A DNA stretch of 64,000 bases from Schaalia vaccimaxillae DSM 15804 (GTDB taxonomy: Bacteria > Actinomycetota > Actinomycetes > Actinomycetales > Actinomycetaceae): positions 186,001 through 250,000 of the forward strand of contig NZ_ATUX01000007.1 of NCBI RefSeq assembly GCF_000420425.1, given 5' to 3'. The translations under genes and the position numbers were made by a program. The notes under the pieces were generated by a model that was given only the letters and a program-made list of their open reading frames with translations, was not told the origin of the DNA and made no database searches. This document shows, piece by piece, positions 4,158 to 45,775 of the stretch. Position 1 is the stretch's first letter. Every line of letters begins with the position of its first letter.

Positions 4158-5414
4158 GTGGCTCGATTGACCGACGGAGCTGAACTGCTCAAATGCTCTT
4201 TCTGCGGCAAGAGCCAAAAGCAGGTCCGCAAGCTCATCGGCGGATCCGGTGTCTACATTTGCGACGAATGCATCGAACTGTGCAACGAAATCATCGAAGA
4301 AGAACTTGGTGAAAAGGTCGAGGAAACCTCGTCAACACCGCTACCCAAGCCCCGTGAAATCAACGAATTCCTCGATTCCTGGGTGATTGGGCAAGACCGA
4401 GCCAAACGCGCCCTGGCCGTCGCTGTTTACAACCACTACAAGCGTGTTCGCTCGCGCGAAGCGGGCAACGAAGAAGACATGCTGGGCACCAAGTCGAACA
4501 TCTTGCTGCTGGGACCTACGGGAACTGGCAAAACTCACTTGGCTCGCTCACTGGCACGCCTCCTGCACGTGCCTTTCGCGATCGTCGACGCAACGGCTCT
4601 GACCGAAGCCGGATACGTGGGCGAGGACGTGGAAAACATCCTTCTGCGCCTCATCCAAGAGGCCGACAATGACATTAAGAAGGCTGAGCGCGGCATCATC
4701 TACGTTGATGAGATCGACAAGATTGGCCGCAAGGGAGAAAACGCGTCCATCACACGAGACGTGTCCGGCGAGGGCGTCCAGCAGGCACTCCTAAAGATTA
4801 TTGAAGGAACCGTAGCGTCGGTGCCCCCGCAGGGAGGACGCAAGCACCCCCACCAACAATTCCTTGAGATTGACACCTCCGGCATCCTCTTCATCGCAGC
4901 AGGTGCTTTCGCTGGCATTGAAGACATTGTCAAAGCTCGCCTTGGTCAACGTTCAACAGGTTTTGGGTCTGAACTCAAGTCGGCCACAGAGATGGGTGAT
5001 CTCTACGAGTCAGTCACGGCTGAGGACCTGCATAAGTTCGGTATGATCCCCGAATTCATTGGCCGCCTACCGATCTTGACTTCCACTAAGGAACTGACTG
5101 AAGAAGACCTGGTTCGCGTCCTGACTGAACCTCAAAACTCTCTGGTTCACCAGTACCAGCATCTTTTCGAACTCGATGACATTGAGCTAGAGTTCACCCA
5201 CGACGCTCTGCTGGCTGTAGCGGCTTTGGCCAACGAACGCAAAACCGGTGCACGTGGCCTGTCGTCGATTATGGAATCGACCCTGTCGGAGTTGATGTTC
5301 GAACTGCCGAGCCGAGATGACGTGGCTCGCGTGGTCATTACCCGCGAGTATGTGGAGGGCGTGGGCCAGGCCGAACTCTACCCGGAGCGTTCCCAGGGAA
5401 TCCGCACCGCCTGA
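4158..5414 (+). CDS. clpX: ATP-dependent Clp protease ATP-binding subunit ClpX
   Basis: AAA+ unfoldase that feeds substrates to ClpP. The 418-residue product begins with a C4 zinc-binding domain (Cys13, Cys16, Cys35, Cys38), then has Walker A GPTGTGKT, Walker [11 protein letters not shown], and the C-terminal ClpB_D2-like small domain with the sensor-2 motif TGARGL. The GTG start is supported by ACGGAGG at 4145-4151. The gene probably has its own promoter because a hairpin separates it from clpP2. The chorismate mutase gene follows after 12 bp. Confidence 0.97.
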
Positions 5415-41689: not shown

Positions 41690-42306
41690 GCATTTTGCCA
41701 ATTGTCATCACGGGAGATCCTGTGCTCCACCAACGGGCGCAGGAGATCGACGTGATTGATAGTTCAGTGGCGGATCTTGCGCACGACATGATTGACACAA
41801 TGGTGGTTGCCCCCGGTGTCGGTTTGGCTGCGCCCCAAGTGGGTGTGGGCCAAAGACTCTTCGTTTGGCGCTTTTCGGGCCAATCTGCCTTTGATGATCT
41901 CTACGGTTCCACTTTGGGGCTTCGCACACCTTGTGCACCCAGTTCCGGTGTCGTCGTCAACCCACAATTGGAATACAAGTGGGATGCGAACGCCGGTCTG
42001 CCCGCTCAATTGGATGAGGATCGTGAGTGCGAAGGGTGCCTGTCAATTCCCGGATACCAATATCCACTGCGACGAGCAGGCAATGTCGTATTGACTGGAC
42101 TGTCGTTGAGGGGACAGCGAATCGAGATTGAGGCTTGGGGCTGGCTTGCCCGAATCTTCCAGCACGAGTACGACCACCTTGCAGGCACGCTCTACGTGGA
42201 CCGTCTTGATCAACCGTGGAAGTCAGCCAGTCGCCAGGCGATCGAAAGTGAAGGCTGGGGCAGACCCGGCTTTCAGTGGACCTCGAAACCTAGGCTCTTG
42301 AAGTAG
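41686..42306 (+). CDS. def: Peptide deformylase
   Basis: Metal-dependent enzyme that removes N-formyl from nascent proteins. The 206-residue protein has the three family motifs: GVGLAAPQVG (about residues 43-52), ECEGCLSIPG (with the metal Cys) and QHEYDHLAG (HExxH). It carries an insertion between motifs 1 and 2 as some actinobacterial deformylases do. The ATG at 41686 overlaps the previous stop; an upstream in-frame ATG at 41644 lies inside the amidotransferase gene. Its last 34 bases overlap the 3' end of pflA on the opposite strand. Confidence 0.94.
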   Translation: MSILPIVITGDPVLHQRAQEIDVIDSSVADLAHDMIDTMVVAPGVGLAAPQVGVGQRLFVWRFSGQSAFDDLYGSTLGLRTPCAPSSGVVVNPQLEYKWDANAGLPAQLDEDRECEGCLSIPGYQYPLRRAGNVVLTGLSLRGQRIEIEAWGWLARIFQHEYDHLAGTLYVDRLDQPWKSASRQAIESEGWGRPGFQWTSKPRLLK

Positions 42307-43211
42307 TCGCGGACCTCTTGCGTATTTTGTGGCGTCGGGGGGGTTGTCGAATCAAGCTCGTACGTCAGACCCAGGTTCTTCCATTTGTCTCGCCCCATCT
42401 GGTGGAAGGGGAGTACTTCCACGCGATCAATGACATTCTTCCACCTGCCGATAATGTCACCGATGGCTCGGATGTTTTCGGGATCGTCGGTCAGTCCTGG
42501 CACGAGGACGAACCTGATCCATACGCGCGTCTTATTTCGAGCCGATAGGCGATCGCCGAAGTCGATGGTGGGCTGGAGGGCGCCGGTGGTGACCCGCTTA
42601 TAGAGCTCGGGGATTCCGGCTTTGACGTCGAGGAGACACAGGTCGAGGTGATCGAGGATGTCGTCGTCACAATTGACGCCCAGGAAACCGGAGGTGTCCA
42701 GACAGGTGTGCACGCCCATCTCTTTGGCGCCGTGGAAGATTCGACGGACGAATTCCGGTTGCATCATTGCTTCGCCCCCGGAAATTGTCACCCCTCCGCC
42801 GGTGGTGCGGAAGATGCGGCGGTAGCGACGAATACGGCCCAGGATTTCGTCGATAGACACCGGAGCCCCGTCCTTCATGAGGAAGGTGTCGGGGTTGTGG
42901 CAGTACAGGCAGCGCAAGCCGCAGCCGTTGAGAAACACTGTCAGGCGGGTTCCTGGTCCGTCAACGGCCGTCACCAACTCCCAGGAGTGAACTGACCCCA
43001 AAGTGCCGTCGTGCATGCGTTGGAGACGTTCGTGGCGTTCAATATCGGTGAGCTCAACGAGGCCGGCGGTGCCCAATCCCATTGCGCGCGCCGTGGGGGC
43101 TTGGAAGTCTTGATCCTGCAGGGACTTGGAGCTGTCGTTGGTACGCGGTCCGCGCGAGACAATGCTTGAACCGTCACCGACGGGGATGATGGGCGGAATC
43201 TGCGTTGTCAT
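42273..43211 (-). CDS. pflA: Pyruvate formate-lyase activating enzyme
   Basis: Radical-SAM enzyme that installs the glycyl radical on pyruvate formate-lyase. The 312-residue product has the 4Fe-4S motif FLNGCGLRCLYCHNPDTF (Cys-x3-Cys-x2-Cys), TTGGGVTISGGEAMMQP, and the downstream LYDVKAG-like LLDVKAGIPELY. The N-terminal about 65 residues before the core are longer than in E. coli PflA. It is third of three minus-strand genes: pflB, the small glycyl-radical protein and pflA, with a strong hairpin before it. It converges on def with a 34-base overlap. Confidence 0.95.
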   Translation of the reverse strand: MTTQIPPIIPVGDGSSIVSRGPRTNDSSKSLQDQDFQAPTARAMGLGTAGLVELTDIERHERLQRMHDGTLGSVHSWELVTAVDGPGTRLTVFLNGCGLRCLYCHNPDTFLMKDGAPVSIDEILGRIRRYRRIFRTTGGGVTISGGEAMMQPEFVRRIFHGAKEMGVHTCLDTSGFLGVNCDDDILDHLDLCLLDVKAGIPELYKRVTTGALQPTIDFGDRLSARNKTRVWIRFVLVPGLTDDPENIRAIGDIIGRWKNVIDRVEVLPFHQMGRDKWKNLGLTYELDSTTPPTPQNTQEVRDYFKSLGFEVH

Positions 43212-43240: not shown

Positions 43241-43273
43241 CTGTGGGGCGCAGACCTGGTCTGCGCCCCACAG
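43241..43273 (-). terminator. Hairpin between the glycyl-radical small protein gene and pflA
   Basis: A perfect 14-bp stem (43241-43254 with 43260-43273) with a 5-nt loop sits in the 113-bp gap on the minus-strand message. No T-run follows. It could lower or separate pflA expression, or protect the upstream RNA. Confidence 0.65.
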
Positions 43274-43324: not shown

Positions 43325-43576
43325 TCAGGCGGACTGGTGGAAGGTGCGCGAAAGGACGTCGAGCTGCTGTTCGCGAGTGAGCTTGACGAAGTTGACGGCG
43401 TAGCCGGAGACACGCACCGTCAGGTTCGGGTACTTCTCGGGGTTCTCGATGGCGTCCTCGAGGGTAGCGCGGTCGAGCACATTGATGTTGGCGTGGTACA
43501 GGCCGTCGGTGACCTCGTTCTGGGCGCGGGCTGCGCGCATGTCGGCCAGACGTTCTTCGTAAGTCTTGGTTGCCAT
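43325..43576 (-). CDS. Stand-alone glycyl-radical domain of pyruvate formate-lyase (GrcA-like)
   Basis: An 83-residue protein. From residue 25 it aligns with the last about 60 residues of pyruvate formate-lyase: [20 protein letters not shown], then RVSGYAVNF with the radical glycine at residue 58 and the standard C-terminal end [13 protein letters not shown]. Residues 1-24 are an added helical leader, so this is an independent gene. The ATG is preceded by AAGGAGAATCATC, a strong site. The upstream pflB stops just before this domain, so this protein must supply the radical. E. coli GrcA (YfiD) is a similar stand-alone domain used to repair damaged enzyme. Confidence 0.93.
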
Positions 43577-43612
43577 GATGATTCTCCTTGGTGGGGTGTG
43601 GCGGTTAGGGGT

Positions 43613-43641
43613 GCTCTGGGAGGCTTGTGGCCTCCCAGAGC
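43613..43641 (-). terminator. Hairpin between pflB and the glycyl-radical small gene
   Basis: A perfect 12-bp stem (43613-43624 with 43630-43641) with a 5-nt loop lies in the 72-bp gap just after pflB on the minus strand. It may attenuate transcription, so that the large and small subunits differ in level, or stabilise the pflB message. Confidence 0.65.
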
Positions 43642-43648
43642 TGATTGG

Positions 43649-45775
43649 TCACTTCTGAGCGGTCATTTCGACAGCGCACTCATCGTCGGGCACGAAGCCC
43701 GCATCGAGGATGCCGACGAGGTTTTCAATCTGCTCTTCTTTGGTGCGTCCCAGACCAGACGGAGTGATCGTGTTGGTCAGGGAGATACCGTCGAGAGCAT
43801 CGTTGTAGTCGAGCTTGCCTACAGAGAGCATCGAGGCGACCATGCCATGGGTGTCGATGCCGTTTTCCGGGTTGGCGCCGGGGGCGAAGGGGGTGCCTGC
43901 GCGGTGACCCGACGGGAAGTTACCGGTGGCCTTGCCGTAGACGACATTCGAGGTGATGGTCAGCACCGACTGGGTCGGGATGGCGTCGCGGTACATGGGG
44001 ATCGCACGAATCTTGTCCATCACCGTGTGAACGATGGTTGCGGCAATATCGTCGGCGCGATCGTCGTCATTGCCGTAGGTCGGGAAGTCACCCTCGGTCT
44101 TGTAATCAACGATCAGTCCGGTTTCGTCGCGAATCGGAGTAACCTTCGCGTACTTGATCGCAGCCAAAGAATCGGCGACGATCGACAGGCCAGCGATACC
44201 GCAGCCCATGGTGCGGATGATCTCGGAGTCGTGCAACGCCATTTCGATGGACTCGTAGGCGTAGCGGTCATGGCAGTAGTGGATGATGTTGAGGGCCTCA
44301 ACGTAGGTGCCCACAACCCAATCCAGCATTTCCTCGTACTTGCTCCAGACCTCATCGAAGTCGAGCGGGCCGTCGCCTTCGATGCCGGGCAGCCCTTCGA
44401 CGACCTGCTTTCCGGACATTTCGTCGCGGCCACCGTTAAGAGCGTAAAGCAGGGCCTTAGCGGCGTTAACACGGGCACCGAAGAATTGCATCTGCTTACC
44501 GACCTTCATCGGGGAGACGCAGCAGGCAATGGCGGCATCGTCGCCCCAGTGGTCGCGGATCTGGCCGTCAGACTCGTACTGGATGGACGAGGTCTCAATC
44601 GAGATTGCTGCGCAGAAGTCCTTGTAACCCTTGGGCAGGTTCTCATCCCAGAAGATCGTGATATTCGGTTCGGGAGCGGGACCCAGGTTACGCAGGGTCT
44701 GCAGGAGTCGGAAAGAGGTCTTCGTAACCAGGGTGCGTCCGTCGTCGCCAAAGCCTGCGTCTGACCAGGTGGCCCAGTAGGGGTCGCCAGAGAAGATCTG
44801 GTCGTAGTCGATGGTGCGCAGGAAGCGGGTGATGCGCAGCTTAATGACGAGGGCGTCGATGATTTCCTGGGCGCCGGACTCATCCAGCGTGCCGTTGGCA
44901 AGATCGCGTTCGAAGTAGATATCGAAGAAACCGGAGAGGCGGCCAATGGACATGGCGGCGCCGTCCTGGGACTTGACCGAAGCCAGGTAGCCAAAGTAGG
45001 TCCACTGGACGGCTTCTTGGGCGGTGGTGGCCGGACCGGAGATGTCGTAGCCATAATCGGCGGCCATCTTCTTGAGCTTCTTGAGAGCCTTGATCTGCTC
45101 GGAATGTTCCTCGCGGTAGCGTGCCCAGTGCTCAGAGAAGCCCTGGTCGGCGTACTTGTCTTTGGCTTCGAGCTTGTCCTCAATGAGACGATCCACGCCG
45201 TACAGGGCAACGCGACGGTAGTCACCGATGATGCGGCCTCGACCGTAAGCGTCGGGCAGGCCAGTGATGATGTGAGAGGAACGTGCCGCGCGAATACGGG
45301 GCGTGTAGATATCGAAGACTGCGTCGTTGTGAGTCTTGCGGTACTGCGTGAAGATCTTCTTGACCTCGGGGTCGTGTTCCTTGCCGGCCTCGTGGATGGC
45401 GGTTTCGACCATGCGCCAGCCGCCGTTGGGCATCATGGCGCGCTTGAGAGGGGTGTCGGTTTGCAGACCAACGATGACATCATCGTCTTTGGAAATGAAG
45501 CCCGGCTTGAATGCGTCGATGTCAGCGGGGGTGTGGGTGTCAACGTCAAGGATGCGAACCTTGCGCTCCTCAGCTAGGTATTCCTTTTCAAGGGTGTCCC
45601 ACACGCGCAAAGTCTTGTCGGTGGGGCCAGCTAGGAATGAAGCGTCGCCCTCGAATGGCGTGTAGTTGCGCTGGATGAAGTCGCGGACGTCGATCTCCTG
45701 GTTCCAGGTGCCCTTTTCGAATCCGTCCCAGGCGTCCTTGGTGAGGGCGTCAGAAGCGGGCTGCTCGTTCGTCAT
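43649..45775 (-). CDS. pflB: Pyruvate formate-lyase catalytic subunit without its glycyl-radical domain
   Basis: Formate C-acetyltransferase: pyruvate plus CoA to acetyl-CoA plus formate, the anaerobic route of pyruvate cleavage. 708 residues; the thiyl pair Cys418-Cys419 in AIACCVSP sits at exactly the E. coli numbering, and SGHRAGTPFAPGANPENG is the expected C-proximal motif. The product ends about 60 residues short of a full enzyme (near NLVGILD) and lacks the radical-bearing RVSGY segment, which lies in the next gene. I set the start at 45775 with AGAGGAAAG upstream. A possible operator lies at 45884-45893. Confidence 0.95.
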   Translation of the reverse strand: MTNEQPASDALTKDAWDGFEKGTWNQEIDVRDFIQRNYTPFEGDASFLAGPTDKTLRVWDTLEKEYLAEERKVRILDVDTHTPADIDAFKPGFISKDDDVIVGLQTDTPLKRAMMPNGGWRMVETAIHEAGKEHDPEVKKIFTQYRKTHNDAVFDIYTPRIRAARSSHIITGLPDAYGRGRIIGDYRRVALYGVDRLIEDKLEAKDKYADQGFSEHWARYREEHSEQIKALKKLKKMAADYGYDISGPATTAQEAVQWTYFGYLASVKSQDGAAMSIGRLSGFFDIYFERDLANGTLDESGAQEIIDALVIKLRITRFLRTIDYDQIFSGDPYWATWSDAGFGDDGRTLVTKTSFRLLQTLRNLGPAPEPNITIFWDENLPKGYKDFCAAISIETSSIQYESDGQIRDHWGDDAAIACCVSPMKVGKQMQFFGARVNAAKALLYALNGGRDEMSGKQVVEGLPGIEGDGPLDFDEVWSKYEEMLDWVVGTYVEALNIIHYCHDRYAYESIEMALHDSEIIRTMGCGIAGLSIVADSLAAIKYAKVTPIRDETGLIVDYKTEGDFPTYGNDDDRADDIAATIVHTVMDKIRAIPMYRDAIPTQSVLTITSNVVYGKATGNFPSGHRAGTPFAPGANPENGIDTHGMVASMLSVGKLDYNDALDGISLTNTITPSGLGRTKEEQIENLVGILDAGFVPDDECAVEMTAQK

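Follow-up and report, generated by a model that had tools for sequence, protein, structure and literature searches.

The window analysed here, a 64,000-nucleotide stretch of the Schaalia vaccimaxillae DSM 15804 genome (contig NZ_ATUX01000007.1, positions 186,001 to 250,000), raises the question of whether a pyruvate formate-lyase (PFL) whose glycyl-radical domain lies in a separate gene is a damaged enzyme, a PFL accompanied by a spare part, or an enzyme built from two obligate subunits. PFL is a central enzyme of fermentation. Three genes follow one another on the minus strand in the order pflB, grcA2 and pflA. Specifically, pflB (43,649–45,775) encodes a PFL catalytic core subunit of 708 amino acids without the glycyl-radical loop, grcA2 (43,325–43,576), whose ATG lies 72 bp from the pflB stop, encodes a glycyl-radical subunit of 83 amino acids, and pflA (42,273–43,211) encodes a radical-SAM activating enzyme of 312 amino acids, which matches TIGR02493 with 298.9 bits, above the cut-off of 231.75. 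Read from the sequence, and again on the minus strand, the codons of Cys418 and Cys419 map to 44,519–44,524, that of Gly58, the predicted radical site, to 43,403–43,405, and the grcA2 Shine–Dalgarno sequence AAGGAG to 43,584–43,589, with an anti-Shine–Dalgarno duplex of -8.3 kcal/mol versus -5.8 kcal/mol for pflB. Residues 1–24 of GrcA2 (43,505–43,576, minus strand) form a leader made of a conserved motif followed by a variable linker.

The profile and alignment data show how an ordinary PFL is distributed over the two chains. The large chain matches positions 1–681 of the 744 of TIGR01255 with 991.4 bits, so that taken alone it falls just below the cut-off of 994.2, and it covers positions 3–647 of 647 of PF02901 and 1–66 of 106 of PF01228; its alignment with E. 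coli PFL spans residues 9–693. TIGR01255 positions 682–744, corresponding to the glycyl-radical loop, fall in the separate gene and not in the PflB polypeptide: GrcA2 matches positions 681–743 of this model and 63–106 of 106 of PF01228, and aligns with E. coli PFL residues 699–758. Cys418 and Cys419, which we take to be the thiyl-radical pair by their role in E. coli PFL, are invariant columns in both PflB alignments (A1 and A5), and Gly58 is invariant across the 45 rows of the GrcA2 alignment (A2). An earlier note, made from the letters of this DNA, had described a pflB that keeps the cysteine pair and ends before the RVSGY loop, followed 72 bp downstream by a separate 83-residue gene with Gly58, and both the gene coordinates and the alignments agree with that description. 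The closest named relatives of the small protein come from two Schaalia species (87 and 86 percent). As regards structures, PDB chains 38la and 38lb matched PFL to about residue 687 only, with no radical domain matched, and were not used as evidence on split PFLs.

To ask whether a complete PFL exists elsewhere, we searched the whole source genome (13 contigs totalling 2.34 Mb, with a stated completeness of 100 percent). PF02901 was matched once and PF01228 in two pieces, in every case at the pflB–grcA2 locus, and no second PFL core or glycyl-radical domain was matched in this whole-genome profile search. The full-length pflB elsewhere, which the earlier note had named as evidence against its reading, was thus looked for across the genome and not found, and the proposal that the small gene is the only source of the radical, originally limited to the locus, can be extended to the only PFL glycyl-radical domain found genome-wide.

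The same arrangement was then followed in other genomes. GrcA2 is a member of the NCBIfam family NF008341, 'autonomous glycyl radical cofactor GrcA2' (163.6 bits versus a cut-off of 145, positions 1–80 of 80, hence above the curated cut-off), and a protein over this cut-off occurs in 156 of 213 family genomes, which also show a PFL core match. Full-length PFLs, defined as a TIGR01255 row covering position 1 or 2 to 742–744 with no stop, were present in 32 of the 213 genomes among the matches listed, and none of these 32 was one of the 156 GrcA2 genomes. Where a GrcA2 genome had two TIGR01255 matches, these were taken, among the matches listed, as core and radical domain. Nineteen genomes were searched again, namely all those GrcA2 genomes in which TIGR01255 matched more than twice (15) and four others; their extra matches, remote glycyl-radical enzymes or fragments, scored at most 175 bits. 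One more genome (G124) is apparently the 157th split one of the family, its small gene being only partly recovered. In a class-wide sample of 394 genomes, three were over the GrcA2 cut-off (the source genome, G293 and G588) and 42 gave weaker matches; 41 of the 43 weaker match rows lie in open frames of at least 755 residues, as expected of full-length PFLs.

Among 80 named loci, the split form was found in Schaalia, Actinomyces, Trueperella, Corynebacterium and Rothia, and in addition in Propionibacterium acidifaciens, Dermabacter, Brachybacterium and a Cellulomonadaceae MAG. A set of 17 genomes comprised two with an intact PFL (Sanguibacter and Cellulomonas citrea) and 15 with a split, fused or fragmentary one (the fragment being that of C. 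phocae), and no second full-length PFL was detected in these 15; since the Actinomyces naeslundii genome among them (G617) shares its coordinates with one of the family set (G020), at most 14 of the 15 are additional. Altogether, 160 of 163 loci held both parts, 82 of them intact and 78 split, including three copies of the source locus. What had been noticed as a local oddity is therefore a lineage-wide arrangement. Because it recurs in many genomes, across the family, a sequencing error or decay is ruled out as its cause; likewise, the earlier view that the split is not a simple frameshift stands, on account of both this recurrence and the start and ribosome-binding site that the small gene has of its own.

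Two split loci have unusual spacers. In the Cellulomonadaceae MAG (L089), the two genes share a few bases, and a different contig carries a further radical-domain piece. In L061, 378 bp separate the two genes, most split loci having far fewer; within this spacer lie an N and, on the minus strand, a stretch matching the pflB end (model positions 594–682), perhaps marking an assembly fault.

These data bear directly on the reading suggested by the family name, which would make GrcA2 a classical spare part of the E. coli kind that rescues oxygen-cleaved PFL and is normally dispensable. An arrangement of that kind does exist in the same phylum, since Rarobacter faecitabidus (L123, small ORF ending at 4180) combines a full-length PflB, in a 759-residue frame, with a GrcA encoded elsewhere that has a different leader; it provides a useful control for the split lineages. 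However, the PflB encoded next to GrcA2 lacks a radical glycine that could suffer damage, GrcA2 over its cut-off is never accompanied by a full-length PFL among the matches listed and in the genomes searched again, and GrcA2 scores 87.9 bits against the E. coli-type model TIGR04365, well short of its cut-off of 170. We consider the spare-part reading very unlikely. The split being common in relatives of Actinomyces and in several other actinobacteria, GrcA2, despite its spare-part label, is probably essential as a subunit.

Our preferred interpretation, which we regard as highly probable, is an obligate two-subunit PFL composed of a PflB core and a GrcA2 radical subunit. PflB would provide the barrel, the substrate sites and the cysteine pair, while the strand and RVSGY loop of GrcA2 would insert at the place of the ordinary PFL C-terminus; PflA would install the radical on Gly58 of GrcA2, from which it would pass to Cys419 of PflB. 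The likeliest origin is that an ordinary pflB underwent fission between ILDAG[FM] and the 11 residues that follow (letters not shown), after which the small piece would have gained a start and a new leader, and the large piece a short variable tail.

Split large chains end in LVGILDAGF or a close variant, followed by a short variable tail, while the nearest intact relatives run uninterrupted through this point (for example ILDAGM-TEGLFHANINV in Sanguibacter). The 76 small genes examined have 81 to 84 codons, and 75 of them start with ATG and 75 show a Shine–Dalgarno core by a loose four-letter test that carries no chance control.

In the source locus, pflB and grcA2 share one frame, and the pflB TGA, the sole stop between them, is followed by a perfect 12-bp hairpin (43,613–43,641, minus strand; z -5.7, lineage-specific and with no T run), features that the earlier note had missed. 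Read-through of the TGA, giving also one full-length polypeptide, could account for this combination, and one Corynebacterium (L071) does have an open fused frame. Against it, grcA2 lies in frame 0, 1 or 2 relative to pflB in 31, 26 and 18 of the 75 remaining split loci, a count that includes near-identical ones, a single-stop frame like that of the source locus is found in 13 of these 75, and the small gene nearly always has its own ATG and Shine–Dalgarno sequence. Stems of at least 11 bp occur in only 5 of 52 loci, which also led us to reject the hairpin as a conserved element. As the frame is not conserved, we reject read-through, whose probability we judge to be close to nil.

A second perfect hairpin, of 15 bp, lies between grcA2 and pflA (43,241–43,273, minus strand; z -5.7), so that grcA2 is flanked by two perfect GC-rich stems, which could have a role in transcript stability or subunit ratio. 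Scans for promoters and terminators returned one promoter versus 1.1 expected and five terminators versus 3.2 expected.

Whether a PFL can work with its radical on a second chain is addressed by experiments on E. coli. Andorfer et al. 2021 (PMC8683613) cut E. coli PFL at residue 695 (tPFL, residues 1–695), almost at the natural break point; this tPFL showed undetectable binding to YfiD and acquired 32-fold less radical than oxygen-cleaved PFL; once activated, however, tPFL with YfiD was as active as the wild type (kcat 121 +/- 25 per s). In addition, PMC12338860 reports that an E. coli PflB-G734A strain made intermediate amounts of formate with GrcA and none without it. These results demonstrate, in principle, that the enzyme can work while another chain carries the radical. 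On the other hand, the undetectable binding and scarce radical of tPFL indicate that a bare split is a poor enzyme unless compensated. Catalysis in trans being workable in principle, a natural split must solve assembly and activation, and the leader of GrcA2 is the obvious candidate.

The leader carries the motif T-[YF]-[DE]-E-R-L-A-[SD]-M-K-A-x-R between the start and the radical domain, and is absent from the nearest intact PFLs, in keeping with its description as new in the earlier note. In 61 distinct small proteins, in which the radical loop is invariant, the first R of the motif is present in all 61 and the M and the last R in 60 each; their spacing by four residues suggests that they may lie along one face of a helix. 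At the invariant R, four different synonymous codons are used across 52 loci, and the conservation therefore reflects selection on the protein. The leader is less conserved than the radical domain, with a mean pairwise identity of 0.72 over 13 positions versus 0.88 over 53 positions.

On the PflB side, three neighbouring residues appear to be specific to split enzymes: A579, T580 and H583 occur in 52, 53 and 52 of 53 split rows, respectively, versus one, none and one of six near intact rows. Over five thresholds, which were our own choice, 3 to 16 positions were split-specific, and the chance of three falling by random placement in a six-residue window ranged from 0.00015 to 0.064; the clustering is only suggestive. 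The split and its recurrence, the lack of a second PFL in the source genome and the conservation of the leader despite freely varying synonymous codons are shown directly; we infer a physical PflB–GrcA2 complex, catalysis in trans and a role for the leader, which most likely aids assembly or activation. Specifically, the conserved leader, perhaps with A579, T580 and H583 of PflB, would offset the binding lost by the separation of the two chains.

A different division of labour can also be envisaged, in which the pair assembles with no special help and the leader presents GrcA2 to the activase PflA, having no part in docking to PflB. PMC8683613 supports it in that the N-terminus of E. coli YfiD mattered for radical installation and not for catalysis, but the same source indicates that this region mattered also for binding to cleaved PFL. 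Moreover, the split-specific PflB residues fall in one stretch, and inspection by eye of PflA revealed no extension special to split loci. An activase role alone is possible, though we think it doubtful. It can be added that, in the same report, leaderless YfiD was activated on tPFL 5.4-fold better than full YfiD, so that the E. coli leader was of no help on that truncated enzyme.

As a further alternative, the split PFL might be a relic, dead or diverted, that makes no formate. The poor activation of the bare split in E. coli (PMC8683613), the loss of most of pflB in C. phocae and the statement in PMC4177395 of no PFL evidence in Varibaculum cambriense are compatible with this possibility. 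Opposed to it are the conservation of both proteins across many genera, the invariance of the radical loop noted above, and the secretion of formate by A. naeslundii, the sequenced genome of which (L084, G617) shows a split PFL only. According to PMC6493303, A. naeslundii released 0.56–2.53 µg of formate per million cells in 20 h versus 0.09–0.47 µg for Streptococcus sobrinus in the same media; the authors described formate levels as low, and regarded the secretion as confirmation of the PFL pathway. If the assayed strain matches the sequenced one, this points to a working split enzyme in A. naeslundii and, only indirectly, to the predicted PFL reaction (pyruvate + CoA to acetyl-CoA + formate). 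A relic is, in our opinion, very unlikely indeed.

Split PFLs are found in hosts that include facultative genera, and this fits with a replaceable radical subunit. In such an extension of the two-subunit model, GrcA2 would act as a consumable cartridge: it would dock through its leader helix, be cut by oxygen at Gly58, be released and give way to a fresh copy that is docked and activated in turn, so that one large core would outlast many such rounds. On this view, facultative actinobacteria would have adapted to alternating oxygen through the split, and repair would be routine, no longer a matter of emergency. Replacing an oxygen-damaged radical subunit in this way, a step that the earlier note had also raised with caution, is an attractive idea, but we put it forward tentatively and would sooner bet against it. 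If GrcA2 were consumed, a stronger grcA2 ribosome-binding site would be expected, and this is not general: over-supply by this route was not supported, the grcA2 site being the stronger in 23 of 34 comparisons (Wilcoxon p 0.13; 33 loci, L078 being entered twice, with pflB given its best start).

Compared with known systems, the pair shares with E. coli PflB (TIGR01255; PDB 1H16) a homologous barrel, the cysteine pair and the glycyl-radical domain, but here this domain is a separate product with an added leader and the large chain ends shortly past the equivalent of residue 693. GrcA2 resembles GrcA/YfiD (TIGR04365; PDB 6OWR) in being small, in carrying the same radical domain and in being produced separately from PflB. 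E. coli GrcA, however, repairs a complete PflB and has a longer leader, with residues 1–60 disordered (PMC8683613), whereas the partner of GrcA2 is never complete and its leader is short and conserved. An NCBIfam family name already exists for the small protein, one that implies a spare part, yet the genomes holding it are without a full-length PFL among the matches listed. The closest parallel in design is the artificial tPFL–YfiD pair of the same study, with nearly the same break, the radical on the second chain and working catalysis; that pair is engineered, binds undetectably and is poorly activated, while the natural pair comes with a leader of its own and with residues specific to the split form. 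Our literature search turned up no publication on a naturally split PFL, most subscription papers being outside its reach. A radical enzyme of another class, with another cofactor, is likewise made of two chains, as the class II ribonucleotide reductase of Pseudomonas aeruginosa is reportedly split in two.

If the two-subunit model is true, these loci would encode a natural glycyl-radical enzyme with its radical domain as a separate obligate subunit. They would offer a handle on how an activase reaches a glycine buried in the assembled enzyme, with an 83-residue substrate that can be offered free or docked. Evolution would have made workable a cut that leaves engineered E. coli PFL poorly activated, and the residues to test are named above. 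The annotation would also be corrected, GrcA2 being probably essential for formate fermentation in the 156 family genomes, and a separable radical part may help to build oxygen-tolerant PFL systems.

Regarding the origin of the split, a quick tree was built from 79 PflB cores (52 split and 27 intact). It left out the two further copies of the source locus (L002 and L003), loci with a partial or broken pflB (L068, L069 and L119), L076, which was short after trimming, and near-duplicates; two remote enzymes with 25–27 percent identity (L018 and L021) and L123, which had no pflB, had been dropped beforehand. The tree showed two deep clades (SH-aLRT 100). The first holds 20 full-length PFLs, including those intact ones of the family that were retained for the tree, and the second the 52 split rows, the fused L071 and some intact PFLs, namely those of Sanguibacter, Cellulomonas citrea, an Oscillospiraceae record, a Propionibacteriaceae MAG, Ancillula and Bifidobacterium. 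The free tree needs three changes between split and intact, but constraining the 53 split or fused rows into one clade gave a tree 46 log-likelihood units better (AU p 0.969), which the free search had missed, the tested group having been named after the tree was seen. A single origin is therefore compatible with the data, though not proven. Fresh splitting within the genera holding both kinds (g11 and g14) is not favoured, because their intact PFLs sit in the other deep clade; by their placement, the two kinds in these genera seem to be different PFLs, as opposed to older and newly split versions of one PFL. The split PFL has probably been transferred to Corynebacterium, Rothia and others.

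We also considered whether GrcA2 descends from a spare-part GrcA of the Rarobacter type, an origin that is not favoured. The similarity of its leader to the Rarobacter GrcA leader averaged 16.1 versus 15.8 for shuffled sequences, the best of 61 being 32 versus a shuffle maximum of 28. The GrcA2 radical domain shared on average 47.8 of 53 residues with the end of Rarobacter PflB, 43.3 with Rarobacter GrcA and 43.1 to 45.5 with other intact PFLs, a comparison in which 53 residues decide little.

Finally, three single loci stand out. In Corynebacterium sp. Marseille-P4321 (L071:1690–4092), PflB, linker, leader and radical domain lie in one 827-residue frame in which the leader and the Shine–Dalgarno sequence are retained, and its tree neighbours C. 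riegelii and C. wankanglinii are split; this is an apparent natural re-fusion, either real or a sequencing error. In C. phocae (L068, 3639–4249), only approximately the last 100 pflB codons are left, preceding grcA2 and pflA; the locus has no N run, and decay, deletion or misassembly are candidate causes. The record of Oscillospiraceae bacterium HV4-5-C5C (L092) contains a full-length PFL that is 80 percent identical to the source PflB and falls inside the clade of the latter, for which transfer, contamination or a mislabelled record are alternative explanations.
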